This document shows, piece after piece, positions 5,534-62,357 of a DNA stretch of 64,000 nt; the stretch's first letter is position 1, and every line of letters begins with the position of its first letter. Under the pieces are notes generated by a model. That model was not told the origin of the DNA and did no database searches. It saw only the letters and a program-made list of their open reading frames with translations. The DNA comes from Rufibacter sp. LB8. GTDB taxonomy: Bacteria; Bacteroidota; Bacteroidia; Cytophagales; Hymenobacteraceae. Both the position numbers and the translations under genes were made by a program. Location: contig NZ_JADALJ010000001.1 in NCBI RefSeq assembly GCF_014876185.1, positions 3,205,501 to 3,269,500 on the forward strand, in the 5' to 3' direction.

Positions 5534-5794
5534 AAAGAAAGAGAAATTGTTAAGATATAAGCCAGAAACTGTTTACCTGAAGCCTAAGAAAAGCAAGTTT
5601 CCCAGACAACATACGTAATTGACCCGTAGAGTATTAACTCTTTTCAAGTTAAGTTTAGTATAAATTCGGCCATCCGCCAAAAAGCAGATTCCCGTTTTCG
5701 GCTTCATTTATGAAAATGGAGCTGAAAACAGGTTTAGGTATAAATTAACATTGCCTGCATAAGCTAACTTTTTAATCCTTGTTAAGGATTGGAT
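5534..5794. other. Intergenic spacer upstream of the DUF4175 gene
   Basis: About 260 bp without a gene. It holds one divergent copy of the dispersed 40-bp palindrome (5692-5732) and a small inverted repeat AATCCTT/AAGGATT at 5774-5790 just past the stop of the next minus-strand gene. That hairpin is not followed by a T run on the minus strand, so I do not call it a terminator. The DUF4175 promoter should lie near 5540-5640, but no convincing consensus was found. Confidence 0.6.
5692..5732. repeat. Dispersed 40-bp palindrome, divergent copy 1
   Basis: Arms CCGTTTTCGGCTTCATTT and AAATGGAGCTGAAAACAGG with several mismatches. It is a worn member of the family best seen at 7545 and 14504. Confidence 0.75.
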
Positions 5795-6286
5795 TTAGGA
5801 ATATCCATTTGTTCCAATTCCTAAGCGTTCGCCAGTAGTTAGATTTAATCTAATAGTGAAATAACAATTTCCACCATCAAATGCATAAATGATTTTTTTC
5901 CGCCAATCTTGGTCGAAGGCATTACAAAAACCATTTATCCAAATTTCTTTTTCTCCTTTGTTATTCAAATAAGGAACGTATTGAATATTGTAGTTATTCA
6001 AACCCTTTATTTGATACATTTTGGCATATTTTTTCTTTTCTCCGCGCTTTCTAAACCCCTCCTTTGTTGCTGAATTGAAGTCATTGATATAATCCAGTGA
6101 TGCTTTCTTCACTACATCAAACTCAGCTTCTGTCAGCTCTGTAGGCTTTGATGATTGAGGGAGAATTTTATAAAGTGATATAAGGTCCGTTATGGTAGAT
6201 TGGTCTTTCAAAACCACATAATCAGATTGTCCTCGACAGATTGCAAGGTTCAAGAGCGCATATAAAAGAAGGAAGAACTTTTTCAT
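5795..6286 (-). CDS. Hypothetical secreted protein
   Basis: A 163-residue protein not recognised. It begins MKKFFLLLYALLNLAICRGQ, a clear export signal; the Cys lacks a good lipobox (Ile at -1), so cleavage by signal peptidase I near residue 19 is more likely than lipidation. The mature part is mixed alpha/beta with many aromatic residues and no catalytic motif that I can name. The gene is visibly richer in A and T than its neighbours (many AAA, ATT and TTT codons), which hints at acquisition. It stands alone, 35 bp downstream of exonuclease III on the same strand. Confidence 0.7.
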   Translation of the reverse strand: MKKFFLLLYALLNLAICRGQSDYVVLKDQSTITDLISLYKILPQSSKPTELTEAEFDVVKKASLDYINDFNSATKEGFRKRGEKKKYAKMYQIKGLNNYNIQYVPYLNNKGEKEIWINGFCNAFDQDWRKKIIYAFDGGNCYFTIRLNLTTGERLGIGTNGYS

Positions 6287-6321
6287 AATTTAACTATTAA
6301 CTTCTATATGGCTCACAGACA

Positions 6322-7095
6322 CTAAGCTTCCACCGGGTGCATTTCCAGCAACACCGGACAATGGTCTGAATGTTTGGCCTCAGGTAAAATAGCGGCCCGT
6401 TTCATATAAGGCTTGAGGTGCTCAGATACCAGCAGATAATCAATGCGCCAGCCCAAGTTCTTCGCACGTACGTTGGCGCGGTAACTCCACCAAGTGTATT
6501 GGTGCGGCTCCTGATTGAAATGCCGGAAGGAATCTACGTAGCCGTCTTGCAGGAACGTGGAGAACCAATTGCGTTCCTCGGGCAAGAAACCGGAGCTGTT
6601 GGCGTTCGACTTCGGGTTGTGGATATCTATTGGCTGGTGGCAGATGTTGTAGTCGCCGCAGATGACCAAACCGGGCACCGTTTGCTTCAAAGTCTGCAGA
6701 TACTGTTGAAAATCGCGGAGCCATTCCATCTTGAACGCCTGCCGGTGTTCGCCGCTGGAACCCGAGGGCATGTACACGTTCAACACCGAATACCCGTCAT
6801 AGTCAGCCCTGATTACACGGCCTTCCTGGTCATAGCGTTCAATACCGCAGCCAATGCCCACACTCTTCGGTTCCAATTTAGAGAGGATAGCCACGCCGCT
6901 GTAGCCTTTCTTTACCGCCGGATGAATGTACACGTGGTAACCAAGTTCCTCAAAACAGGCTTTGTCGAACTTGGTCTCGTCGGCTTTAATTTCCTGCAAG
7001 CAGAGTACGTCTGGGTTGGCGGCGCGAACCCAATCCAGAAAGCCTTTGGAAATGGCACTTCGTATGCCGTTGACGTTATAACTAATGATTTTCAT
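6322..7095 (-). CDS. xth: Exodeoxyribonuclease III (AP endonuclease)
   Basis: DNA base-excision repair enzyme of the endonuclease/exonuclease/phosphatase fold; 257 residues, the usual size. Visible active-site elements are NVNGIRS (Asn8), LQEIKADE (Glu35), GDYNICHQPID (Asp148, Asn150) and the terminal HSDHCPV (Asp244, His245). A WRIDYLLVS motif precedes the last. The start ATG at 7095 follows directly after the TAG stop of the upstream gene without a gap, so the pair is co-transcribed and probably translationally coupled. High confidence in family; whether the main activity is AP endonuclease or 3'-5' exonuclease cannot be read from sequence. Confidence 0.95.
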   Translation of the reverse strand: MKIISYNVNGIRSAISKGFLDWVRAANPDVLCLQEIKADETKFDKACFEELGYHVYIHPAVKKGYSGVAILSKLEPKSVGIGCGIERYDQEGRVIRADYDGYSVLNVYMPSGSSGEHRQAFKMEWLRDFQQYLQTLKQTVPGLVICGDYNICHQPIDIHNPKSNANSSGFLPEERNWFSTFLQDGYVDSFRHFNQEPHQYTWWSYRANVRAKNLGWRIDYLLVSEHLKPYMKRAAILPEAKHSDHCPVLLEMHPVEA

Positions 7096-7437
7096 CTATT
7101 GCATCTCCTCAAAATATTCCAGCGCGTGCCATTTCAACATGCGTTCCTGTTCTTTCAGGTTGCAGGCGGGCAGCGGTTTAATAGATTTCCAGTGGGGCCA
7201 GCCTTCGGCGTCAACACCTTCCAGTTCATAATGCCCGGAAAGGCTGAGGAGTTTACAGGTGGCAATGTGCATTAAATCCTGCTTTTCCTCTTTGGTGAAC
7301 TCCCTGCTTCCCTGCCCCAGTTCCTGCACGCCAATCAAAAAAAGAATAGCGTTCAAATCGGGTTTTTTCCCAAACATACTCTTGATGTTCTGGCGCAACG
7401 CAGCCCAGCGCACATCAAAGTCTTCTTCGTTCTCCAT
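7096..7437 (-). CDS. Conserved hypothetical protein upstream of xth
   Basis: A 113-residue soluble, mostly helical protein not recognised by name. It begins MENEEDFDVRWAALRQN and contains LFLIGVQELGQG, which looks like a conserved core helix. There is no signal peptide or membrane segment. Its TAG stop abuts the ATG of exonuclease III, the tightest possible arrangement, so a link to DNA repair is worth considering but unproved. The start ATG at 7437 is the first in frame. Confidence 0.75.
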   Translation of the reverse strand: MENEEDFDVRWAALRQNIKSMFGKKPDLNAILFLIGVQELGQGSREFTKEEKQDLMHIATCKLLSLSGHYELEGVDAEGWPHWKSIKPLPACNLKEQERMLKWHALEYFEEMQ

Positions 7438-7544
7438 AGATGTTGTGTGTGGATATCTGTGGAATTTCGTCAGTGTGAAGCAAAATTTTTATTTCACTTC
7501 TGATTTATCAACAGACCTTTCCAATTATTAAAGTGGCAAATTTT

Positions 7545-7584
7545 CCGTTTTCGGGCTCATTTTCAGAAATGAGCCCGAAAACGG
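7545..7584. repeat. Dispersed 40-bp palindrome, canonical copy 2
   Basis: A near-perfect inverted repeat with arms CCGTTTTCGGGCTCATTT and AAATGAGCCCGAAAACGG around a TCAG loop. It ends 8 bp downstream of the stop of the AhpD-like gene (minus strand), where a transcript would end. Confidence 0.92.
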
Positions 7585-7591
7585 AATGTTA

Positions 7592-7942
7592 TTAACCTTG
7601 TTGCTCGGTCTTTAGTTCTTCCCAATATTCCACGGCTCTCCGGAAGTGCGGAATCACAATGGAACCACCAATTAAGTTGGCGATGGAGAAGACTTCATAG
7701 ATTTCCTCATCGGTTAATCCGCACTCAAAGCATTTGCCCAGGTGGTATTTGATACAGTCATCGCAGCGTAAGACCATGGAGCAGGCCAGGCCCAGCATTT
7801 CCTTGGTTTTTACGTCCACGGCACCCTCAGCGTACGCGTTGGTGTCTAGGTTGAAGAAGCGCTTGATTACTTTATTATCCGCGGCCATGATCTTTTCGTT
7901 CATGCGGGTGCGGTAGTCGTTGAATTCTTTTACTTGGCTCAT
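7592..7942 (-). CDS. Carboxymuconolactone decarboxylase (AhpD-like) family protein
   Basis: A 116-residue single-domain member of the CMD/AhpD superfamily. The redox motif LRCDDCIKYHLGKC (Cys60, Cys63, His67, Cys71) matches the CxxC-x3-H signature of AhpD-like peroxidase partners. No peroxiredoxin gene is adjacent, so the substrate is unknown. A thiol-based antioxidant role is inferred from the CxxC pair. It is transcribed alone, with a canonical palindrome right after its stop. Confidence 0.88.
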   Translation of the reverse strand: MSQVKEFNDYRTRMNEKIMAADNKVIKRFFNLDTNAYAEGAVDVKTKEMLGLACSMVLRCDDCIKYHLGKCFECGLTDEEIYEVFSIANLIGGSIVIPHFRRAVEYWEELKTEQQG

Positions 7943-8000
7943 TGTTGTGCGTGCTAATTAGGGCAGAATTGCCTCTAATGTAAAGTTACATCAAAACTGC

Positions 8001-8723
8001 ATGAATTCTATGGCGCAGCTATCTTTGGGAGTCAAGACCTTGGTGCAGGATTTTCTGGCACTCATTTATCCTGAGGAATGCCGTGGCTGCGGTGGTGCCT
8101 TGGCGGTAAGCGAAGAAGTGATTTGCAGCCACTGCCGCATTAAACTGCCGTATACCGGCTTCCATCTCTCCCCCACTGACAACGCCCTGCACAAAGTTTT
8201 CTGGGGACGCGTGCCCGTGCAACTGGCCGTGGCCTATCTGCTGTACCAGGAGAAAAGCCGCGTGCAACGCCTGCTGCACCAACTCAAATACCGCGGCCAG
8301 GAAGAAATTGGCGAAGTCCTGGGCAAATGGATGGGGAACAGCCTTCAAGAAAACGCAGCATTCATTGACATTGACGTGGTAGTGCCCGTGCCACTGCATA
8401 AAAGCAAACTCTCTCAGCGCGGCTATAACCAGGTCACAGAATTCTCCAACGCCCTGGCAAATGCCTTACAGGTAGTAGTAGCCGAAACCGCGCTCCAGAA
8501 AAACAAAGCCGTGGGTACCCAGACCAAGAAAAACCGGAAAGACCGTTGGGAAGCCATGCGCCAACTCTACGCCATCAGAAATGCGGAAGCCATCAAAGGC
8601 AAACACGTTTTGCTGGTAGACGATGTGGTGACCACCGGCGCCACTTTAGAAGCCTGCGCTGATCTGCTATTGAAGAATGGTGCCCGTGCCGTGAGTGTGG
8701 CGGCCATTGCCTATACCTTGTAG
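8001..8723 (+). CDS. ComF family phosphoribosyltransferase-like protein
   Basis: A 240-residue ComF-type protein. The N-terminus has a zinc-ribbon-like CRGC (Cys27, Cys30) and CSHC (Cys42, Cys45). The C-terminal half is a type I phosphoribosyltransferase fold with the PRPP loop VLLVDDVVTTGATL near residues 206-219. ComF homologues take part in DNA uptake in naturally competent species (with helicase-like ComFA in Gram-positives), but many bacteria keep it as an orphan and its reaction is undefined. It is divergent from the AhpD-like gene. The first ATG at 8001 is used; a second at 8010 is possible. Confidence 0.9.
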   Translation: MNSMAQLSLGVKTLVQDFLALIYPEECRGCGGALAVSEEVICSHCRIKLPYTGFHLSPTDNALHKVFWGRVPVQLAVAYLLYQEKSRVQRLLHQLKYRGQEEIGEVLGKWMGNSLQENAAFIDIDVVVPVPLHKSKLSQRGYNQVTEFSNALANALQVVVAETALQKNKAVGTQTKKNRKDRWEAMRQLYAIRNAEAIKGKHVLLVDDVVTTGATLEACADLLLKNGARAVSVAAIAYTL

Positions 8724-8728
8724 AAATT

Positions 8729-8768
8729 CCGTTTTAGGGCTCGTTTTCAGAAATGAGGCCGAAAACGT
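8729..8768. repeat. Dispersed 40-bp palindrome, copy 3
   Basis: Left arm CCGTTTTAGGGCTCGTTTT, right arm AAATGAGGCCGAAAACG. It begins 6 bp past the comF stop codon. A few G:T-type mismatches. Confidence 0.85.
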
Positions 8769-8927
8769 AAAGTCTTAGCACAGACGTGGGCTTACGCAGC
8801 AGAAACGTCTCCAATTAGAAGACCCCTTTTTCTCAGCTTTGCCCTGGTTTTAAGATTGTTCTGATTTAAGTGGTTCATGCTGCATGGAACACATTATGGC
8901 AGCTACACCATCTTACAGGTGAGAAAG

Positions 8928-8967
8928 GCGTTTTTGGCTCCATTTCCAGAAATGAAGCCGAAAACGG
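8928..8967. repeat. Dispersed 40-bp palindrome, copy 4
   Basis: Left arm GCGTTTTTGGCTCCATTT, right arm AAATGAAGCCGAAAACGG. Here the left arm is the degenerate one, so copies occur in both orientations. Confidence 0.85.
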
Positions 8968-9020
8968 AAACTGATGAATATGGCCAGTCAAAATTTTGGA
9001 CCCAATAAAAAAGGCATAAA

Positions 9021-9046
9021 AAAAGGGACCCATACAGGTCCCTTTT
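9021..9046 (-). terminator. Rho-independent terminator of gldJ
   Basis: Perfect 10-bp stem AAAAGGGACC/GGTCCCTTTT with a 6-nt loop, 22 bp past the gldJ stop. On the minus strand the stem runs into a T-rich stretch, as expected for an intrinsic terminator. Confidence 0.88.
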
Positions 9047-9067
9047 CTATTAATAGGTTGGTTCAGC

Positions 9068-10255: not shown

Positions 10256-10347
10256 AAATTTGGTCTGAACCAGGTAAAATTGTATTCTAAATAATAATTG
10301 TACTTTAAATAATAGTAAAGCCTATCAACACGCAATAATATAGAAAA

Positions 10348-11421: not shown

Positions 11422-11466
11422 TTAGAATTAAGTAAACTTACAAGCTGAAATAACAGCAATGACACT

Positions 11467-14503: not shown

Positions 14504-14553
14504 AAAAGCCGTTTTCGGGCTCATTTTCAGAAATGAGCCCGAAAACGGCTTTT
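14504..14553. repeat. Dispersed 40-bp palindrome, extended canonical copy 5
   Basis: An almost perfect 50-bp inverted repeat: core arms CCGTTTTCGGGCTCATTT and AAATGAGCCCGAAAACGG, extended by AAAAG and CTTTT. It starts 20 bp past the AsmA stop. The outer A/T arms make it look like a bidirectional intrinsic terminator. Confidence 0.92.
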
Positions 14554-15496: not shown

Positions 15497-15536
15497 CCGT
15501 TTTCGGGCTCAATTCTGGAAACGAAGCCAAAAACGC
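15497..15536. repeat. Dispersed 40-bp palindrome, copy 6
   Basis: Left arm CCGTTTTCGGGCTCAATT, right arm AAACGAAGCCAAAAACGC, with mismatches. It sits between two convergent genes, 5 bp from the dinB-family stop. Confidence 0.85.
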
Positions 15537-16695: not shown

Positions 16696-16735
16696 CCGTT
16701 TTCGGGCTCATTTCTGAAAAAGAGCCCGAAAACGG
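16696..16735. repeat. Dispersed 40-bp palindrome, canonical copy 7
   Basis: Arms CCGTTTTCGGGCTCATTT and AAAGAGCCCGAAAACGG, flanked by TTT and AAA that extend the pairing. It lies about 58 bp downstream of the acyltransferase stop (minus strand). Confidence 0.9.
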
Positions 16736-23770: not shown

Positions 23771-23810
23771 GCGTTTTCGGGCTCATTTCTGGGAATGAGG
23801 CCTAAAACAG
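23771..23810. repeat. Dispersed 40-bp palindrome, copy 8
   Basis: Left arm GCGTTTTCGGGCTCATTT, right arm AATGAGGCCTAAAACAG. It directly abuts the fumC terminator (23811), between convergent operons. Confidence 0.85.
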
Positions 23811-25326: not shown

Positions 25327-25360
25327 AAAAACGGGTGCCCCAAAGAGAGCACCCGTTTTT
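25327..25360. terminator. Terminator-like hairpin upstream of fumC
   Basis: Stem AAAAACGGGTGC/GCACCCGTTTTT with a 10-nt loop. It looks like a bidirectional terminator, but sits 59 bp upstream of the fumC start with no gene ending nearby on the right for 600 bp. It may stop read-through from the GHL10 transcript. Confidence 0.7.
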
Positions 25361-25392
25361 GCCTTCGTTTCTGGAAATGAGCCCGAAAACGG
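25353..25392. repeat. Dispersed 40-bp palindrome, copy 9
   Basis: Left arm CCGTTTTTGCCTTCGTTT, right arm AAATGAGCCCGAAAACGG. Its left arm overlaps the 3' arm of the hairpin at 25327-25360, so the two structures cannot form together. Confidence 0.85.
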
Positions 25393-25851: not shown

Positions 25852-25891
25852 CCGTTTTCGGCTTCATTTCTGAAAACGAGCCTGAAAACAG
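25852..25891. repeat. Dispersed 40-bp palindrome, copy 10
   Basis: Left arm CCGTTTTCGGCTTCATTT, right arm AAACGAGCCTGAAAACAG. About 80 bp downstream of the GHL10 stop. Confidence 0.82.
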
Positions 25892-27601: not shown

Positions 27602-27641
27602 CCGTTTTCGGGCTCATTTCCAGAAACGAGGCCAAAAACGG
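27602..27641. repeat. Dispersed 40-bp palindrome, copy 11
   Basis: Left arm CCGTTTTCGGGCTCATTT, right arm AAACGAGGCCAAAAACGG. It ends 4 bp before the dipeptidase stop codon on the minus strand, so it is immediately 3' of that gene. Confidence 0.88.
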
Positions 27642-28519: not shown

Positions 28520-28820
28520 GAACATCTTGACACCCCGCGGGGTTTTGCTGCTTTTAAATGGTAAGGTTAAGAGAAAGTTAAAGTCGGCACGCCACGTTTG
28601 GTACCCGTGGTTTTTGCTGTATTTTTAAAAACGAAGCCAAAAACGGAAAACCATCTTCGGCACGCGGGCCTGGGTAAAATCTCCCAGACGCCTAAGTGGT
28701 AAACGAAGACGATGCTACCGGCGGTAAAGAAAATCCTGTAATTTTATAGAGTTTCTTCCTACTAATAAAAGAAGGAAAACCAGCATTTCAAACCACAACC
28801 TTACCATAAGACCCTTTCCT
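28520..28820. other. Divergent spacer upstream of the M16 peptidase
   Basis: About 300 bp. It holds a GC palindrome ACCCCGCGGGGT (28532-28543), a worn dispersed palindrome (28609-28648) and an AT-rich stretch near 28735-28770 that probably carries the M16 promoter. Confidence 0.55.
28609..28648. repeat. Dispersed 40-bp palindrome, degenerate copy 12
   Basis: Only the right arm, AAACGAAGCCAAAAACGG, is well kept; the left arm has decayed to GGTTTTTGCTGTATTTTT. Confidence 0.55.
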
Positions 28821-31774: not shown

Positions 31775-31814
31775 CCGTTTTCGGGCTCATTTTCAGAAAC
31801 GGGGCCAAAAACGC
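31775..31814. repeat. Dispersed 40-bp palindrome, copy 13
   Basis: Left arm CCGTTTTCGGGCTCATTTT, right arm AAACGGGGCCAAAAACGC. It follows the M16 terminator directly. Confidence 0.85.
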
Positions 31815-32631: not shown

Positions 32632-32671
32632 CCTGTTTTCAGGCTCATTTCCAGAAATGAAGCCGAAAACG
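32632..32671. repeat. Dispersed 40-bp palindrome, copy 14
   Basis: Left arm CCTGTTTTCAGGCTCATTT, right arm AAATGAAGCCGAAAACG. 22 bp past the lipoprotein stop, between convergent genes. Confidence 0.85.
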
Positions 32672-32723
32672 AAAACCGTAGAGACCAGGCACTGCCTTGT
32701 CTTCTGCGCATTCCAAAAAAGCT

Positions 32724-35594: not shown

Positions 35595-35634
35595 GCGTTT
35601 TTGGCCTCATTTCTGGAAATGAGGCCAAAAACGG
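35595..35634. repeat. Dispersed 40-bp palindrome, perfect variant copy 15
   Basis: A perfect palindrome with a shifted sequence: arms GCGTTTTTGGCCTCATTT and AAATGAGGCCAAAAACG. Both arms carry the GGCCTC/GAGGCC change relative to the canonical copy. It lies in a divergent promoter region, 38 bp upstream of the thioredoxin start, unlike most copies. Confidence 0.9.
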
Positions 35635-37865: not shown

Positions 37866-37905
37866 CCGTTTTGGGGCTCATTCCCAGAAACGAGCCCGAA
37901 AACGG
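37866..37905. repeat. Dispersed 40-bp palindrome, copy 16
   Basis: Left arm CCGTTTTGGGGCTCATTCC, right arm AAACGAGCCCGAAAACGG. 27 bp downstream of the GT-C gene stop (minus strand). Confidence 0.88.
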
Positions 37906-39378: not shown

Positions 39379-40041
39379 TTACAACACCGCGTACAGCCCT
39401 ACAAAGAACAGCATTTGCACCAGAAAAACCCACGGAGCCATGGGGTTATCTTTGGGGAAAGTCGCCCGCTGGAAATAGATGTTCAAGGCCAGCGCCACCG
39501 CAAACCAGCCCACAAAATTAGATACCGGAATCACGTTGCCCGCCCAACTCCAGAAGTCAAACGCCACGGCCACCGGTTCAATAAAGAAATCCAGCAACAC
39601 CATGAGCCCCGCCCCCAGCACCGACCGTACCAACCAGTGACTTCCTAATTTCTGTGCCACGTGCCCCACGCTATACACCAGCATAAGCCAGTTCACGCCA
39701 ATAAGCAAAGGGATCTCCCAGAACTTAGTGCCCAGCGTAGGCCCGTACGCATAATTCCCGAAAAGAACACCCGTGTGCACGCCCAACCATTCGGCCCAGA
39801 AACCCACCAGCCAGACCACCGCCGCAAACAGAAAAAAAGACCGTTGCCAGCCCCTGTGAAACGCAAACAGCAGGAAATTGGTGAGCAGCAGATTGAACGG
39901 CACCAACGCCTTGAACCAATCCAGGTGTTGGCTGAAACCCAGGCCCCAGAAACCCACCGCGTAGAAAATAAACAGCACGGCCACGGCCACCGGCAACAAA
40001 CGGTTTCTACTTAACGGGGAATTGACAAAGTTTAGATTCAT
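39379..40041 (-). CDS. cruF: Carotenoid 1,2-hydratase CruF-like membrane protein
   Basis: A 220-residue membrane protein with about seven helices. The stretches WAEWLGVHTGVLFGNYAYGP and LGTKFWEIPLLIGVNWLMLV are characteristic of the CruF/bisanhydrobacterioruberin hydratase family (DUF422). CruF adds water to the terminal psi end of acyclic carotenoids, giving a 1-hydroxy group. Its ATG overlaps the crtD stop by 4 bases (ATGA), so it is translationally coupled to the desaturase, which normally acts next on 1-hydroxy carotenoids. Confidence 0.88.
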   Translation of the reverse strand: MNLNFVNSPLSRNRLLPVAVAVLFIFYAVGFWGLGFSQHLDWFKALVPFNLLLTNFLLFAFHRGWQRSFFLFAAVVWLVGFWAEWLGVHTGVLFGNYAYGPTLGTKFWEIPLLIGVNWLMLVYSVGHVAQKLGSHWLVRSVLGAGLMVLLDFFIEPVAVAFDFWSWAGNVIPVSNFVGWFAVALALNIYFQRATFPKDNPMAPWVFLVQMLFFVGLYAVL

Positions 40042-41525
40042 GCGGAAACAGAAGCGATGGAGGCCGGCACCAGGTCGCCGGCTATTTTAGCGGACAGCAA
40101 GCACAGCGGAATGCCGCCGCCCGGGTGTACGCTGCCGCCCACAAAGTAAAGGCCTTTCAGCTTGGAAGTGAAATTTGGGTGCCGCAGAAACGCCGCCATT
40201 CTGTTGTTGGAGCTGCTGCCGTACAAGGCGCCGCCAAAAGAGGACGTGTCCTGCTCTATGCCCCTGGGGTCCCAGATGCGCTCAGCGGCAATCAATGGCT
40301 CCAGGTCCACGCCCAAGGCGGCACTCAGTTTTTTCAACACGCTTTTTCTGGTCTGCTGAATAAGCTGGTCCCAGTCCTGGCCCTCATTGTGCGGCACGTT
40401 CACCATCACAAACCAATTCTCATGCCCGGCGGGCGCATCTTTCGGCGAATACTTAGACGTAATGTTCACATACACCGTGGGGTCTTCAGAAACGGTTTTC
40501 TTCTGGAAGATGTGCTCAAATTCCTTCTGGTAGTCTTGGCTGAAGAAGATGTTGTGCAAATCCAGCTTCGGGAATTCCTGTGAGATGCCCCAGTAGTAAA
40601 TCAGCGCCGAACTGCTGCGCGGCTGGGCCAGGGTCTTCTCGGGGGCTGGTTGGTTGGGCAGTAATTTTCTGTAAGTAGGCACCACATCCATGTTGCTCAC
40701 CACCACGTCCACCAAATATTTATCCAGGGCCGTGCGCACGCCTGTGGCTTTGTTGCCATTGGTCAAGATTTCCAGTACGGGTTCCCGGTAATAGAACTGC
40801 ACGCCTAGTTCCTCTGCCAGCTGCACCAAACTGTGGGCAATTGCAAAAATGCCGCCCTCTGGGTAGAAAGCACCAATGTTGAACTCCAGGTGCGGAATAA
40901 GGTTGAGTGTGCCGGGCGCCTGGTATGGGTCTGAGCCGTTGTAGGTGGCGTAGCGGTCCAGCAGCTGCACCAGGCGCGGGTCTTTGAAGGCTCGGGCGTT
41001 GGCGGCGTGCATGGTGGTGGCCAGGCCCAGTTCCGGCAAGGCAGGCAGGGTCTTCAGCACATCGGGGCTCAGGTAGGTGTCCAGGCGGTGCAGTGATTTG
41101 TGCAGGAACGTGTCGGCGGTGGCGTGGTACAGCCGGGCTACTTTCTGCAGGTGCTTTAACAGGTCTTTCTGGGGCACGCCCAGCTTTTTTTCGGCCTCCT
41201 GGGCAAATTTCTGGGGGTCTGCGTGGGCGGTGAGGTGCGTGCCGTCTGGCCAGAAATATTCGGTGACCACGGGCAGACGCTGGTAATTGAAATAGTCTTT
41301 GGGGTTTCTGCCGGCCAGCGTGAACAGCTCATCTACCAGGTGCGGCAGTGTGAACAGGGAGGGGCCGGCATCAAAGCGGTAACCGCCGGGTAGGGTAAAC
41401 TGGGTCATCTTTCCGCCAAACGAAGTATTGGCTTCAAACACTGTTACGCGGTAGCCTTTCACAGCCAGCCTGATTGCCGCCGCAATGCCCCCAATGCCTG
41501 ACCCTATGACTGCTGCTGTTGCCAT
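40038..41525 (-). CDS. crtD: CrtI-family carotenoid desaturase, probably CrtD (3,4-desaturase)
   Basis: A 495-residue flavoprotein. The FAD-binding N-terminus is AVIGSGIGGIAAAIRLAVKG followed by VTVFEANTSFGGKMTQF. The C-terminal GLYFVGGSVHPGGGIPLCLL is the CrtI-family signature. Adjacent cruF favours 1-hydroxycarotenoid 3,4-desaturase (CrtD) over phytoene desaturase (CrtI); no crtB, crtW or crtZ is in the window. Together CruF and CrtD make the psi end of myxol-, saproxanthin- or flexixanthin-type red pigments common in Cytophagales. Confidence 0.88.
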   Translation of the reverse strand: MATAAVIGSGIGGIAAAIRLAVKGYRVTVFEANTSFGGKMTQFTLPGGYRFDAGPSLFTLPHLVDELFTLAGRNPKDYFNYQRLPVVTEYFWPDGTHLTAHADPQKFAQEAEKKLGVPQKDLLKHLQKVARLYHATADTFLHKSLHRLDTYLSPDVLKTLPALPELGLATTMHAANARAFKDPRLVQLLDRYATYNGSDPYQAPGTLNLIPHLEFNIGAFYPEGGIFAIAHSLVQLAEELGVQFYYREPVLEILTNGNKATGVRTALDKYLVDVVVSNMDVVPTYRKLLPNQPAPEKTLAQPRSSSALIYYWGISQEFPKLDLHNIFFSQDYQKEFEHIFQKKTVSEDPTVYVNITSKYSPKDAPAGHENWFVMVNVPHNEGQDWDQLIQQTRKSVLKKLSAALGVDLEPLIAAERIWDPRGIEQDTSSFGGALYGSSSNNRMAAFLRHPNFTSKLKGLYFVGGSVHPGGGIPLCLLSAKIAGDLVPASIASVSA

Positions 41526-41597: not shown

Positions 41598-41637
41598 CCG
41601 TTTTAGGCCCCGTTTTCAGAAATGAGCCCGAAAACGG
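41598..41637. repeat. Dispersed 40-bp palindrome, copy 17
   Basis: Left arm CCGTTTTAGGCCCCGTTTT, right arm AAATGAGCCCGAAAACGG. It begins 4 bp past the SRPBCC stop and separates that gene from crtD. Confidence 0.87.
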
Positions 41638-42984: not shown

Positions 42985-43596
42985 ATGAAAAAGATTTTTC
43001 TTCTGATAGTGGTAGTGGCCATTGCCGCCGGTGGGTATTGGTTTTACAACCGTGCCAAGACTGGCCCAGAGGCCTCCATCCTGCACATTAAAACTGCTCT
43101 GGAAGCCAATGACATGCAGGCCCTGGAAAAATACGTGGACTTGAAACGCACTTCGCAGAGTTTGGTGGACGGTAGCAAGAACATGGTCATGGACCAACTG
43201 CCCGAAGGCCTGCGCGGCGCGGCCACCTTGCTGGGCAAAGGCCTGGCGCTGAAACGTGACCTGAATGGTGCCGTGCGCAACCAACTAAAACAAACCCTGG
43301 AAAGCGCCTCTGGCCAGAAAGTACCCGACATGACGGATGTGATCAAAGTCCTGCCCTTCGGGAAGCTCCTCAACAAGAACATGTTGCCCAAGCTGGAATT
43401 TCAGGACATTGACTACGTGAACCGCGAGGATTCTATTGCTGTGGTGGGCTTGAAAGTGCGGCCCGTGAACCAGACCGAATCCATGGTCATTGAACTCCTC
43501 ATGGAAGACCGCGGCGATTATTGGCAGGTGGTGGGTATTCCCAACTTCAGCACAGTGCTGCCTCAGTTGATCACCATCGGCAGAAAGAAAGAGTAA
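42985..43596 (+). CDS. DUF2939 family membrane-anchored protein
   Basis: A 203-residue protein with one N-terminal anchor (FLLIVVVAIAAGGYWFY) and a periplasmic domain starting ASILHIKTALEANDMQALEKY, the DUF2939 pattern (ligand-like fold with a conserved YVDL). Residues LVDGSKNMVMDQLPEGL follow. The function is unknown. It follows the CsgG-like lipoprotein at 105 bp and ends in a perfect palindrome shared with the convergent rpiB. Confidence 0.75.
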   Translation: MKKIFLLIVVVAIAAGGYWFYNRAKTGPEASILHIKTALEANDMQALEKYVDLKRTSQSLVDGSKNMVMDQLPEGLRGAATLLGKGLALKRDLNGAVRNQLKQTLESASGQKVPDMTDVIKVLPFGKLLNKNMLPKLEFQDIDYVNREDSIAVVGLKVRPVNQTESMVIELLMEDRGDYWQVVGIPNFSTVLPQLITIGRKKE

Positions 43597-43598
43597 GT

Positions 43599-43650
43599 AA
43601 CTTCCTGTTTTCGGGCTCATTTCTGAAAATGAGCCCGAAAACAGGAAGTT
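43599..43650. repeat. Dispersed 40-bp palindrome, extended perfect copy 18
   Basis: A near-perfect 52-bp inverted repeat with outer extension AACTTCCTG/CAGGAAGTT around the canonical core TTTTCGGGCTCATTT. Relative to the CCG/CGG ends it has CCTG/CAGG in both arms, a compensated change. It sits between convergent genes, 3 bp past one stop and 18 bp past the other. Confidence 0.93.
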
Positions 43651-46504: not shown

Positions 46505-46544
46505 CCGTTTTCGAGCTCATTTTCAGAAATGGGGCCAAAAACGG
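46505..46544. repeat. Dispersed 40-bp palindrome, copy 19
   Basis: Left arm CCGTTTTCGAGCTCATTTT, right arm AAATGGGGCCAAAAACGG, flanked by ATTT/AAAT. Confidence 0.86.
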
Positions 46545-51395: not shown

Positions 51396-51435
51396 CTGTT
51401 TTTGCCCTCGTTTTCAGAAACGAGGCCGAAAACGC
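51396..51435. repeat. Dispersed 40-bp palindrome, copy 20
   Basis: Left arm CTGTTTTTGCCCTCGTTTT, right arm AAACGAGGCCGAAAACG. Left of the MITE-like element. Confidence 0.85.
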
Positions 51436-51633: not shown

Positions 51634-51673
51634 CCGTTTTCGGGCTCATTTCTGGAAACGTGGCCGAAAACGG
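51634..51673. repeat. Dispersed 40-bp palindrome, copy 21
   Basis: Left arm CCGTTTTCGGGCTCATTT, right arm AAACGTGGCCGAAAACGG. It abuts the terminator at 51675. Confidence 0.87.
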
Positions 51674-53378: not shown

Positions 53379-53418
53379 GCGTTTTTGGCTTCATTTTCAG
53401 AAACGAGGATAAATACGG
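53379..53418. repeat. Dispersed 40-bp palindrome, degenerate copy 22
   Basis: Left arm GCGTTTTTGGCTTCATTTT, right arm AAACGAGGATAAATACGG. It lies in the divergent region upstream of the pterin dehydratase. Confidence 0.75.
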
Positions 53419-53724: not shown

Positions 53725-53764
53725 TCCGTTTTAGTGCTCATTTCTGAAAACGAAGCCAAAAACG
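53725..53764. repeat. Dispersed 40-bp palindrome, copy 23
   Basis: Left arm CCGTTTTAGTGCTCATTT, right arm AAACGAAGCCAAAAACGG. It begins 2 bp past the stop of the pterin dehydratase. Confidence 0.86.
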
Positions 53765-53777
53765 GAACCTAAGAAAA

Positions 53778-53816
53778 GTCCCCTCTCCCCCTGGGAGAGG
53801 GTTAGGGTGAGGGAGC
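53778..53816. repeat. CT-rich hairpin with GGGTTAGGGTGAGGG tail, copy 2
   Basis: Stem CCCTCTCCC/GGGAGAGGG followed by TTAGGGTGAGGGAG. Same layout as 32724 and 54232. Confidence 0.75.
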
Positions 53817-53899
53817 ATTTCCAAAACCAAAGTTTTCAGGCTCAGAGCAATTAACTTTCCTCTCACTTTCCTTCTAAAGGTTGTCTTGAAAAACCAATG

Positions 53900-54021: not shown

Positions 54022-54089
54022 GAGCCCTTTAATACCAGACTATTCTGATAAATAAACCTCACGTTTTCACCCAGCTACCGTTTTCCCCT

Positions 54090-54121
54090 CATCCTACCCT
54101 TCTCCCTTAGGGAGAAGGAAC
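54090..54121. repeat. CT-rich hairpin with G-rich tail, reverse copy 3
   Basis: On the minus strand it reads TTCTCCC-TAA-GGGAGAA then GGGTAGGATGAGGGG, the same layout in the opposite orientation. Confidence 0.65.
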
Positions 54122-54180
54122 TGCGCTTTTCTGGTTGGAAATTGGTTGTTTTCATAGCGTAGGCAGCGCCAGCGTTCCTA

Positions 54181-54216
54181 CTTTTTGCTTCATTTCCCAA
54201 AACGAGCCCGAAAACG
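54181..54216. repeat. Dispersed 40-bp palindrome, partial copy 24
   Basis: Right arm AAACGAGCCCGAAAACGC is intact; the left arm is reduced to TTTTTGCTTCATTTCCC. Confidence 0.65.
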
Positions 54217-54231
54217 CATCCTTCAAAAAAG

Positions 54232-54263
54232 CCCTCTCCGTTGGGGAGGGGTTGGGGTGGGGC
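54232..54263. repeat. CT-rich hairpin with G-rich tail, copy 4
   Basis: Stem CCCTCTCC-GTT-GGGGAGGGG followed by TTGGGGTGGGG, 23 bp upstream of the rsmI start. Confidence 0.65.
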
Positions 54264-54285
54264 CATTTTTCCTTATCTTTGAACT

Positions 54286-56584: not shown

Positions 56585-56623
56585 CTTGCAGCGCTTCGCG
56601 CGAAAGCCATTTCCCCTATTCCC

Positions 56624-57427: not shown

Positions 57428-57433
57428 AAGTTT

Positions 57434-57473
57434 CCGTTTTCGGCTTCATTTCCGGAAACGGAACCAAAAACGG
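57434..57473. repeat. Dispersed 40-bp palindrome, copy 25
   Basis: Left arm CCGTTTTCGGCTTCATTT, right arm AAACGGAACCAAAAACGG. 6 bp past the phosphatase stop. Confidence 0.86.
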
Positions 57474-57506
57474 GTAGAATAACACATTCAATTCATTACA
57501 TCCAAC

Positions 57507-58640: not shown

Positions 58641-58696
58641 AGAACTCCCCGTTTTGGGGCTCATTTCTGGAAATGAGCCCCAAAACGGGGAGTTCT
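58641..58696. repeat. Dispersed 40-bp palindrome, extended perfect variant copy 26
   Basis: A 56-bp inverted repeat, starting AGAACTCCCCGTTTTGGGGC on the left and ending in the exact complement on the right. Relative to the canonical copy both arms carry compensated changes (CGGGGC to GGGGC, CCCG to CCCC). It begins 1 bp past one stop and lies 19 bp from the convergent stop. Confidence 0.94.
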
Positions 58697-58714
58697 GTTT
58701 AAAGCACTTTGGAG

Positions 58715-58978
58715 TTAGTCAAACAACTCGCTCAGGAAAGATTTTTTCTTGTAAGGCTTGTTGTGGTGTTGGTCATGATGGCGTTGGTCGCCGTAGCCGT
58801 ATTTCTTGTAGTCAGAATCATAGTTTTCTTTCTTGGAGTAGTGCTCGCCGGAGCGCTCAATGATTTTCTCCAGTTCACCGCGGTCCAGCCAAATGCCGCG
58901 GCATTTGGGGCAGTAGTCAATCTCAATTCCGTTTTTATCGCTCATTAAAAGCGTTTCTTGGCAGGCGGGGCATTTCAT
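58715..58978 (-). CDS. Zinc-ribbon (zf-TFIIB) domain protein
   Basis: An 87-residue protein starting at the ATG at 58978 (MKCPACQETLLMSDKNGIEI); an earlier in-frame start would add 21 residues outside the domain. Zinc ligands: CPAC (Cys3, Cys6) and CPKC (Cys23, Cys26), then GIWLDRGELEKII, the zf-TFIIB hallmark. The C-terminus is rich in His, Tyr, Lys and Asp (HHDQHHNKPYKKK), a possible metal-binding tail. Function unknown. Confidence 0.87.
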   Translation of the reverse strand: MKCPACQETLLMSDKNGIEIDYCPKCRGIWLDRGELEKIIERSGEHYSKKENYDSDYKKYGYGDQRHHDQHHNKPYKKKSFLSELFD

Positions 58979-59153
58979 AGGCGTTGGGTTAGATGCTGGT
59001 GACACATTGGGTTCCTTTCTAGAACGCCCCGCGCAAGGCACTTAGTATGGCTGGGGAAGAGCGGCCCGCGCAGTAAAACGCGTAAAGCAGGTGAAATTCC
59101 CGGTTATCGTTCCCAAAGCCGCTTTCAGGGAGGTGAATTCATTTCCGGTATTT

Positions 59154-59193
59154 CCGTTTTCGGGCTCATTTCTGGAAACGAAGCCAAAAACGG
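59154..59193. repeat. Dispersed 40-bp palindrome, copy 27
   Basis: Left arm CCGTTTTCGGGCTCATTT, right arm AAACGAAGCCAAAAACGG. It lies between divergent genes, about 84 bp upstream of the 59277 start. Confidence 0.86.
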
Positions 59194-59276
59194 ACGTGCG
59201 CCCTGCGCAAAATTTCCACCATTTCGGGGCCAACCCTTAAACTATTTGTACCTTTGTGGGCGTTAAGGGAAGTGAC

Positions 59277-59462
59277 ATGGTACAGGAACTCATCATCTTT
59301 ATGGTATTTGCGCTGGCGGCGGGCTACATGCTGCGGCTAGGCTATCAATCGTTTTTCTCCAAAGACGCGGGTTGCGCCAAAGGCTGCGGAAGCGCGTGCT
59401 CTACCATTGACCTCAAGAAAATAGAGGAGCAGATGCGGGCCAAACAGGCGCAGGCTAAATAA
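59277..59462 (+). CDS. FeoB-associated Cys-rich membrane protein
   Basis: A 61-residue protein starting at the ATG at 59277 (MVQELIIFMVFALAAGYMLR); the earlier in-frame start is GTG and adds seven polar residues. One membrane helix (4-20) is followed by a Cys cluster CAKGCGSACS (four Cys) and a charged helix. This is the FeoB-associated Cys-rich family, usually next to feoB; no feoB lies here, so iron transport is only a guess. Confidence 0.82.
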   Translation: MVQELIIFMVFALAAGYMLRLGYQSFFSKDAGCAKGCGSACSTIDLKKIEEQMRAKQAQAK

Positions 59463-59489
59463 CTCAGCCATTCTATTGAAAGTGCCGCT

Positions 59490-59520
59490 AGCCATTCCTC
59501 TGGAGTGGCTTTTTCTTTTT
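59490..59520 (+). terminator. Rho-independent terminator of the Cys-rich gene
   Basis: Stem AGCCATTCC/GGAGTGGCT (one wobble) with a 3-nt loop and trailing TTTTCTTTTT, about 28 bp past the stop. Confidence 0.78.
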
Positions 59521-59531
59521 GCGGGGCATTT

Positions 59532-59571
59532 CCGTTTTCGGGCTCATTTCTAGAAACGGAGCCAAAAACGC
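59532..59571. repeat. Dispersed 40-bp palindrome, copy 28
   Basis: Left arm CCGTTTTCGGGCTCATTT, right arm AAACGGAGCCAAAAACGC. It follows the terminator of the Cys-rich gene. Confidence 0.86.
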
Positions 59572-59691
59572 GGGTCAGCCAGGCACGGCGTTTCTAAATA
59601 TATTTTTCCTTGAATATGGCTGGCAACCCGCGGCGGGTTTTACGTATAGTGGGAGTGTAGCAAAGATCCAACTACCTTAACATACTGAACC

Positions 59692-60030
59692 ATGCAAGAC
59701 AAGGAAGAAGAAAGAAGCCTGATCAACGTAGAGCACCGCCTGCACAAAGAAGGGTATACCGCCGATTTTAGGGTGAGCGAAGACAACCAATTGCTGAGCC
59801 TCAAAGACAACAAAAGCTACGGCGTGACTGATGTGAAAATTGTGGATTTCTACCGTTTTGAAGGCGAAACCAACCCAGATGACATGTCTATTCTGTACGC
59901 CATTGAATGCAATGACGGCACCAAAGGCACCATCTCCAACTCCTACGGCCCGTACGCCGACCAAGGCGTGGACGCGTTCCTGAAACAAGTGGAAGACCTA
60001 GGCAAAAATCTGGACAAAGCCAGCAAGTAA
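59692..60030 (+). CDS. Conserved hypothetical protein (YRFEG family)
   Basis: A 112-residue soluble protein. The segments EGYTADFRVSEDNQLLSLKD and VDFYRFEGETNPDDMSILYA followed by ECNDGTKGTI are typical of a small Bacteroidota family that is often misnamed a phosphoribosylpyrophosphate synthetase; none of the PRPP synthetase motifs are present. No function known. It stands alone between a palindrome and a strong hairpin. Confidence 0.75.
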   Translation: MQDKEEERSLINVEHRLHKEGYTADFRVSEDNQLLSLKDNKSYGVTDVKIVDFYRFEGETNPDDMSILYAIECNDGTKGTISNSYGPYADQGVDAFLKQVEDLGKNLDKASK

Positions 60031-60051
60031 CCCTAATTCCAACTTCTATTG

Positions 60052-60097
60052 AAAGCAGAAGCGGCAGGAGAATCTCTCTCCTGCCGCTTCTGCTTTT
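60052..60097. terminator. Bidirectional terminator between the YRFEG gene and mscS
   Basis: About 20-bp stem AAAGCAGAAGCGGCAGGAG/CTCCTGCCGCTTCTGCTTT with a short loop; TTTTTC follows on the plus strand. It ends directly at the mscS stop, between convergent genes. Confidence 0.9.
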
Positions 60098-61060
60098 TCA
60101 GCTTTCCTGGTCTGGGTTGTCTTCCTGCGGTTCCTGGTCAGTGGGTGGTTTGGTCTTGCCCAAAAGCGCGGGCATGGCCTCTTTGAGCTCAATAGACAGG
60201 TCTTTGCCGCCTTTAATCCCGAAGTTGAGCGTGGTGATAGGGAACGGAATCTCAATCTTGTGTTCGTCAAAGGCTTTCTTTATTCTGATGATGGCCTCGC
60301 TCTTGGCGTACACAAAATCGGTCTGGCGTTTGTACTGAATCCAGTAGCGCACCAAAAAATTGATGCTGCTGGCCCCAAACTCTTCGTAGACCACCTCTAC
60401 TTCCTTGCCCTCAATCTGGTTAGGAATGCCCACCATGGCCGCAATCACCACCTCGCGCACGCGTTCCAGGTCTTCGGCATAAGACACGCCCACTTTGAGG
60501 TCAATGCGCCTGATGCCGTAGTGCGTGAAATTGATAAGCGCCGATTCAAAGACCTTGCGGTTGGGCATTTTCACCAATTCGCCGGTCTGCCTTCTAATGT
60601 CAATGGTGCGCAGGTTGATGCGCTCAATCGTCCCGAAGTGCTCGTTGGTGTCAATCACGTCTCCCACCACAAACGGTTTCCGGACGGCAATAATCACCCC
60701 GGAAATAAAGTTGGCGGCAATGTCCTGAAACGCGAAACCCAGGGCCAGACCTATGATACCCGCACCCGCCAATAACGTGGTAACCGTTTTATCTAGTTTA
60801 AGGATGCTCAAGGCGAAGAAGATGCCCAGTGTGAGGGCGGCTACATAGACCGTGGTGCCTACCAGGTTGTTGAGCGCGCTGCTGTGCGTGAACCTAATCA
60901 AGAGTTTCTCTGAGGTTTTGCGCAGCAGGCGGGCCGTCACAAAAGACAGCACTATGACCAATGTGGCCAGAAAAAGCTCTGGCAGCATGAGCACCAACTG
61001 TTTAAACCAGCGCTCCAGTTTGCCCCATAAAAGATGAAAGGCTTCGTTTATTTCAACCAC
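60098..61060 (-). CDS. MscS family mechanosensitive channel
   Basis: A 320-residue small-conductance mechanosensitive channel. Three membrane helices lie in residues 20-130, the third being the pore-lining TM3 (GAGIIGLALGFAFQDIAANF, 98-117), with the Gly/Ala packing of MscS. The beta domain follows (RKPFVVGDVIDTNEHFGTIE ... PNRKVFESALINFTH). A Gln/Asp/Glu/Pro-rich tail ends the protein. It releases solutes at hypo-osmotic shock. Transcribed alone. Confidence 0.93.
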   Translation of the reverse strand: MVEINEAFHLLWGKLERWFKQLVLMLPELFLATLVIVLSFVTARLLRKTSEKLLIRFTHSSALNNLVGTTVYVAALTLGIFFALSILKLDKTVTTLLAGAGIIGLALGFAFQDIAANFISGVIIAVRKPFVVGDVIDTNEHFGTIERINLRTIDIRRQTGELVKMPNRKVFESALINFTHYGIRRIDLKVGVSYAEDLERVREVVIAAMVGIPNQIEGKEVEVVYEEFGASSINFLVRYWIQYKRQTDFVYAKSEAIIRIKKAFDEHKIEIPFPITTLNFGIKGGKDLSIELKEAMPALLGKTKPPTDQEPQEDNPDQES

Positions 61061-61169
61061 AGGTGTGTTCTTAAGGAATCAAGAAGGTAAAGAAGCGCTG
61101 CGCAGGGCAGAACATCAAAAAGCATACGAAAGATACAGGCCGCGGGGTACATAAACTAGCGCCGGCGGC

Positions 61170-62195
61170 TCAACCCCAGACTTTGGTGCCCTCAGAGCAG
61201 TTTCTACACATGTCAATCTGGCCCCGGCCCTGTAACAGAGAACCCCTGAACTTCTGGTAGGCGGCGCTTTTCCAGAGGTCTTTGAAGCTTTGCTGCTGCA
61301 GGTTGCCCAGGCGGTAATGCGCGTCTTTGTCAAAACAACAGGGTACCACCAGGCCGTCCCAGGTGATCACGCAGGAATGCCACATCTTCCAGCAGCCGTC
61401 AATCAGTTTGTTTTTGAGCGAATATTTGCCGTTGGGCTGCTGCTGGTAGCGGCTGTAATAATCAATGGTAGGAATAAGCGGCGACCCGTTTTCATGGTCA
61501 TAAATCTGCGCGGTCTTGAACCAGACATCGTCTACGCCCAGTTCCTTGGCCAGTTTTTTGGCGTCTTCCAGCTGGTGCTCATTGGGTTTTACTACCAAGA
61601 ACTGAAAGATAAGGTACGGTGTCTTTGATTTGAGCGCGCGTTTCTGCTGCACCAACCGCTTGGTCCCCTCCAGCACTTTGTCCAGCTTGCCGCCCACGCG
61701 GTACTGCTGGTACACGTCTTGGGTGGTGCCGTCCAGAGAGATAATCAATCTGTCCAAGCCAGATTCCACGGTTTTGCGGGCATTTTCCTCAGACAGATAA
61801 TGCGCATTGGTAGACGTGGCGGTATAGATGCCTTTTTTAGATGCGTACTTCACCAAGTCCAGGAACGACGGATGCAAATAGGGTTCGCCCTGGAAATAAA
61901 ACAGCAAGTACAGCAAACGGTCCTGCAACTGGTCAATGGTCTGCTTGAACAAATCATTTGACAACATGCCCGTAGGCCGCGTAAACGACCGCAGCCCGCT
62001 GGGGCACTCGGGGCAGCGCAAATTGCAAGACGTGGTAGGCTCAAACGAAATACTGACCGGGCTTCCCCAGTGGCGGGGCTTTTTGGTGAGGCGCGCCAGG
62101 GCGTAGCTGCTCACCACCTGCAGCGCGTTCCAGGCGCGCCGCGGCGTCAGTTTAGAGGCCAGATTGATTCCGTCTTGTAAAGCGCCGCGGGTCAA
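61170..62195 (-). CDS. Radical SAM / SPASM domain protein
   Basis: A 341-residue radical SAM enzyme. The 4Fe-4S cluster motif is TTSCNLRCPECPSG (Cys57, Cys61, Cys64), and the GEP-like GEPYLHPS follows. The C-terminal SPASM part has CWKMWHSCVITWDGLVVPCC and the final CRNC, enough Cys for one or two extra clusters. Relatives modify peptides or act in quinohemoprotein or sactipeptide pathways; no precursor peptide is seen nearby. The frame has no ATG before an in-frame TAG 5 codons upstream, so I chose TTG at 62195. Confidence 0.85.
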   Translation of the reverse strand: MTRGALQDGINLASKLTPRRAWNALQVVSSYALARLTKKPRHWGSPVSISFEPTTSCNLRCPECPSGLRSFTRPTGMLSNDLFKQTIDQLQDRLLYLLFYFQGEPYLHPSFLDLVKYASKKGIYTATSTNAHYLSEENARKTVESGLDRLIISLDGTTQDVYQQYRVGGKLDKVLEGTKRLVQQKRALKSKTPYLIFQFLVVKPNEHQLEDAKKLAKELGVDDVWFKTAQIYDHENGSPLIPTIDYYSRYQQQPNGKYSLKNKLIDGCWKMWHSCVITWDGLVVPCCFDKDAHYRLGNLQQQSFKDLWKSAAYQKFRGSLLQGRGQIDMCRNCSEGTKVWG

Positions 62196-62204
62196 GATTT
62201 GTGT

Positions 62205-62245
62205 AAGGTGCTAATGGTTAAATGTGCTGAGGTGCTACTAAAATA
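62205..62245. repeat. Phased GTGCTAAT degenerate repeats
   Basis: AAGGTGCTAATGGTTAAATG and GTGCTGAGGTGCTACTAAAA; same word set as 25898, 50171 and 51357. Confidence 0.5.
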
Positions 62246-62317
62246 CAAGCACCTGAAATCAGAAAGCAAAGGTACGCATAGCGCGGCAGAAGGAGACGCA
62301 ATGTTTTAGCGGAGGGT

Positions 62318-62357
62318 GCGTTTTCGGGCCCATTTCCAAAAATGAGCCCCAAAACAG
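62318..62357. repeat. Dispersed 40-bp palindrome, copy 29
   Basis: Left arm GCGTTTTCGGGCCCATTT, right arm AATGAGCCCCAAAACAGG. About 34 bp downstream of the DUF5713 gene stop. Confidence 0.83.

Follow-up and report, generated by a model that had tools for sequence, protein, structure and literature searches.

Analysis of a 64,000-nucleotide stretch of the Rufibacter sp. LB8 chromosome (G000:C1:3205501-3269500, hereafter the window) reveals a 40-bp palindrome, present there in 29 copies, which belongs to a family that, judging from sequence comparison, is dense in this genome and restricted to its genus. Many of its sites are shared between species, its arms are almost never found alone, some of its stems extend into the flanks and, in the high-copy species, the arms tend to have a spelling proper to each species. 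On our best reading the family is undescribed and works like a repetitive extragenic palindromic (REP) element in placement and design, without being a GTAG or a CGTC REP. An earlier note, made from the letters of the window, had described the repeats as dense and intergenic, considered them beside REPs and raised a genome-wide density as a possibility; these points stand, and the occurrence of copies at orthologous sites with species-specific spelling lay outside its view. The source genome (G000) comprises 4.75 Mb in two contigs, C1 (the chromosome) and C2; other genomes and loci are designated by G and L numbers, respectively.

The repeat unit and its distribution

Each unit consists of an arm of 18–21 bp, a loop of four bases and the inverted arm, with an overall length of 40 bp. 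The consensus in G000 is (TTT)CCGTTTTCGGGCTCATTT-CTGR-AAATGAGCCCGAAAACGG(AAA), in which the loop is chiefly CTGR or the complement of CTGR and the outermost TTT/AAA is frequent, not invariant. Among 138 loop-oriented copies there is no tag motif beyond the stem, and in particular neither GTAG nor CGTC is conserved as an unpaired motif at one end of the palindrome; the flanks show only an A-rich stretch followed by TTT ahead of the stem and AAA behind it, the strongest column outside the stem being a T (71%). A two-arm scan of the window yields 30 matches, of which 29 lie within 5692-62357 (Table 1), the same number as counted in the earlier note; the 30th, at 3755, is poor and lies within a called gene, and the copy at 28608 is degenerate, its arms matching at 10/18 and 14/18 positions. 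A 15-mer arm with up to two mismatches occurs 38 times in the window versus 0.27 times expected from shuffles. Genes were called with a home-made hexamer gene caller, which, with an overlap of up to 25 nt tolerated, places none of the 29 copies inside a gene, again as the note had stated; over 424 kb of G000, 7 of 204 copies are flagged within called genes.

Copy counts given here are pattern matches accompanied by reversed-pattern controls. Within three mismatches of a 34-base core pattern there are 933 copies in G000 (control 0), a looser cut gives 476 copies in 824 kb, and a generic pattern with the variable positions left free gives 1,612 copies in the whole genome. Eighteen evenly spaced 20-kb stretches of the chromosome hold 168 copies, which therefore corresponds to about 2,100 copies on the chromosome, and as each stretch contains 6–13 of them the window region is not special. 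The figure of about 2000 copies extrapolated in the earlier note is thus borne out, and the copies are not confined to this region, the chromosome carrying them throughout the sampled stretches.

The family is intergenic and prefers gene 3' ends. In the first 424 kb the median distance from a copy is about 60 nt to a stop codon and about 155–165 nt to a start, and among gaps of at least 60 bp (824 kb) the share holding a copy is 74 of 84 for convergent gaps, 169 of 296 for tandem gaps and 33 of 89 for divergent gaps. A bias in loop orientation is weak: in a first sample the CTGR loop is opposite in sign to the local GC skew in 88 cases and the same in 50, in a larger sample orientation and skew give 63/46 against 53/85 (Fisher p 0.003, with the boundary taken by eye from the skew table and the counts summed by hand), and the orientation is partly tied to transcription (87 opposite and 62 same in tandem gaps).

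The exact G000 pattern is found in 8 of 119 other genomes of the family Hymenobacteraceae, with at most 3 copies each. The burst in a single species that this search suggested is wrong, since hairpins detected de novo in relatives have the same design with other letters, for example CGTTTTTGGCCTGTTTT in G017 and G022 or CGTTTAGGGGCTGTTTTT in G048. Indeed, the generic pattern recovers the repeat from all 16 genomes of the genus, with 94 (G006) to 1,697 (G060) copies, those of G000, G060, G048, G037 and G022 being high-copy, and from 6 of 104 other genomes of the bacterial family, with 1–2 copies (controls 0). Of 394 other genomes sampled from the phylum, three of which also belong to the family sample, 2 contain a single match, and the reversed control gives a single match in 4. 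The exact spelling is nearly confined to G000, and the repeat is genus-wide under other spellings; the scan of related genera proposed in the earlier note, run with the generic pattern, finds other genera near zero. Another palindrome family, AACGCTATNCTTTT-7-AAAAGNATAGCGTT, was seen in the sister genus (G001, locus L150), with 40 copies in G001, 5 in G007 and none in the other 108 genomes searched, and a further short repeat, CCCCCTTTGAAGGGG, has 16 matches on both strands in 824 kb of G000 chromosome samples.

Orthologous sites and species spellings

Orthologous positions were compared in one syntenic region, made up of the window and, for each of 14 relatives (not including G054), one or two stretches, in which the median protein identity of the compared species is 68–94%. 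The orthologous pairs are not independent because they share species, and they come from one region, so that p-values serve as guides. Among 886 orthologous gap pairs both gaps are occupied in 231, one in 253 and none in 402, with 144 pairs expected to be occupied on both sides by independence. As this expectation ignores gap type, offsets were tested: in single-copy orthologous gap pairs the offset from the gene agrees within 5 nt in 124 of 196 cases (0.63), versus 0.13 in non-orthologous gaps of the same type. One gap contains a copy in 12 species at 53–74 nt from the same gene (offsets from reversed stretches were converted by hand), and in the divergent gap near 53379 the loose pattern finds a same-site copy in 13 of 14 relatives, the alignment showing a relic in G032. 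Many copies, on this comparison, occupy orthologous sites across species. At window positions 43596-43605 the genes flanking the palindrome are separated by about 10 kb in G012, G042, G051, G054 and G006; G000 may have lost about 10 kb exactly at the palindrome near 43605.

Spelling was compared as the identity at the ten arm positions that the pattern does not fix, in copies chosen by a loose pattern and a pairing minimum, a choice that should bias the identities of all classes alike. Over all 177 pairs the identity is 0.48 for orthologous copies, 0.43 for non-orthologous copies between the same species and 0.55 within species. The corresponding values are 0.33, 0.30 and 0.65 for the 20 pairs with G000 (averages weighted to G000, with 351 copies), 0.43, 0.38 and 0.58 for G048 (30 pairs), 0.52, 0.49 and 0.59 for G060 (10 pairs), and 0.72, 0.68 and 0.68 for the sister pair G017-G022 (6 pairs). 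In the low-copy group formed by G006, G027, G042, G051, G057 and G063 (21 pairs) they are 0.54, 0.42 and 0.42. Some lineages therefore homogenise their copies, and in others the copies drift as ordinary orthologues. Moreover, C stands at arm position 11 in 645 of 670 sampled G000 arms and in 12 of 12 G000 arms at shared sites, compared with 21 of 118 shared-site arms of the 14 relatives (summed from the table). High-copy species thus have their own arm spelling at shared sites, a pattern that points to concerted evolution.

Copies in a foreign spelling were also observed. Two 20-kb stretches of contig C2 contain no copy; at least two copies are present at G000:C2:120978-122587, one with both arms and the other with a single arm in the spelling of other species, and this DNA may have been acquired from another Rufibacter. 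In Rufibacter glacialis, two copies near the G000 dialect (L012:7178-7393), one with a perfect core and the only two in that genome within three mismatches, adjoin a gene that resembles a sensor kinase as read by eye; these copies look like the result of horizontal transfer. Scanning a wider contig collection, which may omit records near G000, with the exact pattern returned R. glacialis only. A phage or plasmid carrier was rejected, the exact pattern being found in 0 viral contigs and one copy with its flanks having no plasmid match in collections that may likewise omit records near G000.

Table 1. Copies of the 40-bp palindrome in the window (window coordinates).
Copy	Position	Strand	Character	Detection or relatives
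1	5692..5731	.		two-arm scan
2	7545..7584	.	perfect A/A arms	two-arm scan, arm typing
3	8729..8768	.		two-arm scan
4	8928..8967	.		two-arm scan
5	14509..14548	.	perfect A/A arms, flanks pair 5 bases further	
6	15497..15536	.		two-arm scan
7	16696..16735	.		two-arm scan
8	23771..23810	.		two-arm scan
9	25353..25392	.		two-arm scan
10	25852..25891	.		two-arm scan
11	27602..27641	.		two-arm scan
12	28608..28646	.	degenerate	two-arm scan
13	31775..31814	.		two-arm scan
14	32633..32672	.		two-arm scan
15	35595..35634	.		two-arm scan
16	37866..37905	.		orthologous gap of G048 also occupied
17	41598..41637	.		orthologous gaps of G032 and G048 also occupied
18	43605..43644	.	perfect arms, flanks pair 6 bases further	diverged copy at same gene end in G032, G012, G060
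19	46505..46544	.		same gap occupied in 5 relatives
20	51396..51435	.		two-arm scan
21	51634..51673	.		two-arm scan
22	53379..53418	.	divergent gap	same-site copy or relic in 14/14 relatives compared
23	53726..53765	.	directly 3' of small gene	same gap occupied in 10 relatives
24	54178..54217	.		two-arm scan
25	57434..57473	.		orthologous copy in G060 perfect, spelled differently
26	58649..58688	.	perfect G/G arms, flanks pair 8 bases further	own perfect copy in G060 3' of same gene
27	59154..59193	.	A/B subfamily	same gap occupied in G032 and G037
28	59532..59571	.	A/B subfamily	orthologous copy in 11 other species
29	62318..62357	.		two-arm scan

Among the genes of the window, that at 40038-41525 encodes a 1-hydroxycarotenoid 3,4-desaturase, CrtD (NCBIfam, well above cut-off).

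Stems, candidate enzymes and possible origins

In the 824 kb scanned for arms at a match of at least 13/16, 583 arms are partnered and 6 are single, all six at the 13/16 limit. Among the 476 copies of this sample the arm combination A/A is found 45 times versus 20 expected, the C-to-G variant arm is paired with itself (G/G) 15 times, where 1.4 would be expected, and not once with A, and asymmetric A/B combinations exceed expectation. The mismatch counts of the two arms of a copy correlate (rho 0.51), as expected if units are copied whole and then decay; 328 of the 476 copies have 13 or fewer of 16 pairs. Covariation between arms is absent in G000 (z -1.4), reaches z 3.1 in G060 and 3.3 in G037, and ranges from z -0.9 to 1.9 in the other eight genomes with enough copies; it was rejected as proof of an RNA function, being clear in G060 and G037 only.

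Pairing continues beyond the arms at part of the copies. In G000 a complementary flank run of at least six is present in 15 of the 67 copies that pair fully (0.4 expected), in 10 of 81 copies with 14–15 pairs (0.4 expected) and in 5 of the remaining 328 (0.6 expected); in eight other species, measured from the GTTT/AAAC boundary, such runs are found in 14 of 53 well-paired copies (0.7 expected) and in 9 of 181 others (0.3 expected). About one-fifth of the fully paired copies sit within clearly longer, locus-specific stems, some of which are T-tailed terminators; with runs of at least five in the fully paired class, 18 of 24 extended stems have no T-tail. At the gene end G000:C1:2931067 the G000 element is enclosed by AAAAGTCTC...GAGACTTTTTTT. 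At the same gene end G012 and G060 have the element in AAGCTTCC...GGAAGCTT with T-rich sequence after it, and G037 has it in ACGAGGCTCC...GGAGCCTCGT with no T-run; no pattern copy was found within 200 nt of this gene end in G042, G027, G048, G006 and G022. Of the occupied gaps, 19 of 74 convergent ones and 18 of 169 tandem ones have the element within a stem that carries a T-tail, and some copies adjoin hairpins with the look of conserved terminators. A separate terminator-like hairpin is present in 37 of 74 occupied versus 8 of 10 empty convergent gaps and in 49 of 169 occupied versus 24 of 127 empty tandem gaps, and TTTTT follows within 15 nt in 14 of 121 tandem copies. A canonical intrinsic terminator for all copies was rejected, a T-tailed stem being found at a minority of copies only: the element is part of some terminators, not a terminator as a rule.

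The G000 genome has at least seven Y1 transposase genes, six identified by Pfam and a seventh, at 2896924, by homology. Four of the six are above the NCBI cut-off for REP-associated tyrosine transposases (RAYT), the L011 protein falls short of it and that of L006 is scored as IS200/IS605. This genome does have RAYT-type genes, outside the window, in which the earlier note had seen none; they do not simply explain the spread of the palindrome, because three or more of the Y1 genes have different REPs of their own. The RAYT-like gene of L007 (G000:C1, about 2.71 Mb) is bracketed by the repeat AGCGTAACTTGTGG (16 matches in 824 kb) and that of L010 (about 2.46 Mb) by CGAGGTCTTTTGAGC (7 matches in 824 kb), and L011:1424-2460 (about 1.15 Mb) lies amid a different classical REP, GGACAGGTCGCGACCTGTCC, with GTAG preceding 2 of 4 exact copies. 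The L011 gene begins within a copy of the 40-bp family, its first codons being encoded by a palindrome arm, and the L006 gene is flanked on both sides by a palindrome copy, at distances of about 120 and 190 bp. A linked Y1 or RAYT gene, which the earlier note had proposed to look for, was sought at 33 loci among the 45 Y1 matches in the genus; these loci are not consistently flanked by the palindrome, 13 of the 33 having no copy within about 1.5 kb, and RAYT as a simple mover was rejected for want of a consistent link.

We tentatively favour a genus-wide family of non-autonomous, REP-like, untagged hairpin repeats that is inherited vertically and is re-copied or overwritten in place in active lineages. 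A hairpin-handling enzyme would copy whole palindromes, and insertion would favour existing hairpins, either old copies of the family or terminator loops; ancestral sites would be re-occupied or overwritten by the current local variant and, where activity is lost, copies would drift as ordinary orthologues. The leading candidate for this enzyme would be a Y1/HUH-type transposase acting in trans. It is also possible, though open to doubt, that the hairpin-targeting system rewrites at least roughly a thousand dispersed, ancestrally fixed 40-bp sites in place, which would give each active species its uniform dialect by replacement and not just by new insertion. Several points weigh against the favoured reading. 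Copies with 13 or fewer pairs are mostly without extended flanks (runs below six in 323 of 328), the orthology set represents one genomic region with non-independent pairs, and hot spots at which copies inserted independently more than once might account for the shared sites. The comparison revealed neither an insertion event nor an empty site showing a clean insertion boundary or a target duplication, and consistent flanking by palindromes was not seen at the 33 inspected Y1 loci. Moreover, there is no Pfam Y1 match in G017, which has 917 copies and only a RAYT-like homologue at 40% identity, and in G000 at least three of the Y1 genes carry other REPs.

Other explanations account for part of the same evidence. 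The palindromes could form the top of intrinsic terminators or of stabilisers at mRNA 3' ends, maintained for the RNA structure and not as mobile DNA, which we consider rather unlikely. The preference for gene ends agrees with such a role, yet 33 of 89 divergent gaps are occupied as well; among occupied convergent gaps 19 of 74 have a T-tailed stem and a separate hairpin is less frequent than in empty ones, against which stand the separate hairpin that half of these gaps nevertheless have, its higher frequency in occupied than in empty tandem gaps, and the few tandem copies followed by TTTTT. An RNA structure would fit the gene end described above, where the lower stem differs between G000, G012, G037 and G060 and three of these four genomes have a T-rich tail, and also the mismatches in tandem gaps, which are slightly more often GU than AC (251 versus 206; p 0.052 by sign test), but arm covariation is absent in G000 and a structural role predicts no single spelling per species. 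Alternatively, replicative strand switching could keep copying one arm onto the other and into the flanks of an otherwise old and inert repeat. Such palindrome correction would agree with the co-occurrence of perfect arms and extended complementary flanks, many of them without a T-tail, and with the self-matched arm types, but within a site it cannot give about 2,000 separate sites one spelling, and we find it quite improbable.

Binding-site dialects, in which operator-like or RNA sites of a dimeric protein with species-differing specificity follow it at about 2,000 positions by point mutation and selection, as in uptake-sequence dialects, would be consistent with the two-fold symmetry, the core positions conserved in diverged copies, the species-wide spelling and the intergenic placement. 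This explanation seems unlikely, since half-sites almost never stand alone (6 of 589 arms), the self-matched A/A and G/G types without A/G mixtures suggest lineages of copied units, and constant selection should prevent the mismatch found in most G000 copies. The movement of the palindromes in the ordinary REP way by one of the RAYT-like or IS200-like genes of G000 is suggested by the number of these genes and by the positions of copies at L011 and L006; however, with one copy per 2 kb chance flanking is expected, L007, L010 and L011 have their own unrelated REPs, and L006-type genes are present in 3 of 16 genus genomes, which makes this source improbable.

Comparison with known systems

No published description of the palindrome family was found in a literature search, subscription papers and preprints being outside that search. 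The Rfam scan of the window returned 0 matches above gathering score and one palindrome copy compared with Rfam gave 30 hairpin look-alikes, every one under gathering score, in keeping with the earlier note, which knew of no published name. REPINs consist of two hairpins and have their own RAYT. The Rufibacter unit is one hairpin with a 4-base loop and no linked RAYT, and is thus not a REPIN, which is made of two inverted REP hairpins. In the parts of the reports consulted (PMC8049555, PMC3686654), REPIN/RAYT systems are likewise short inverted repeats whose populations are maintained in a lineage.

The family falls within the broad definition of REPs as intergenic palindromes of 20–40 bp in more than 100 copies. 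A MITE of a known IS would have arms identical to the ends of a full element, together with a target duplication; bearing on this are the six lone arms of the 824-kb sample, each at the 13/16 limit, and the search for an empty site, of which none came to light. In the sections consulted of one study (PMC3733652), GTAG and CGTC REPs are described as palindromes of 20–40 bp with high copy number, intergenic and mostly located between unidirectional and convergent genes, and CGTC REPs, reported also from Bacteroidetes, are said to be without a dedicated transposase. The Rufibacter palindromes are like them in size, copy number and intergenic placement, whereas they have no conserved unpaired tag beside the stem, and their genus restriction and the rewriting of orthologous sites are features absent from the sections consulted of that account. 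The same sections mention untagged REP-like families, palindromic and without a terminal motif, in Deinococcus, Mycobacterium, Bordetella, Brucella and Cyanobacteria (PMC3733652), to which the Rufibacter palindromes are likened here by description. Dense REP-like repeats may not be unprecedented in the phylum: a RepRanger table (PMC12306157) gives counts in the thousands for genomes of Bacteroidota (Flavobacterium, Thermoflavifilum), under a column whose meaning lies outside the part of the article consulted, and its main text mentions neither Rufibacter nor Hymenobacter.

REP-like repeats are usually viewed as inserting and then decaying, whereas here shared sites are kept and their letters appear to be renewed in each species, so that concerted evolution can be put to the test on about 2,000 dispersed sites in a bacterium. 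The dialects may serve as tags of horizontal transfer, as for the copies of contig C2 and of R. glacialis, and as elements are now part of some terminators, selfish DNA and gene-end signals may be linked. DNA uptake sequences of Neisseria are present in about 2,000 copies, form inverted pairs after genes and have species dialects, and their single half-sites are common. The Rufibacter palindromes share with them the copy number of about 2,000, the placement at gene ends and the dialects, but differ in that single half-sites are nearly absent, with 6 single versus 583 partnered arms.

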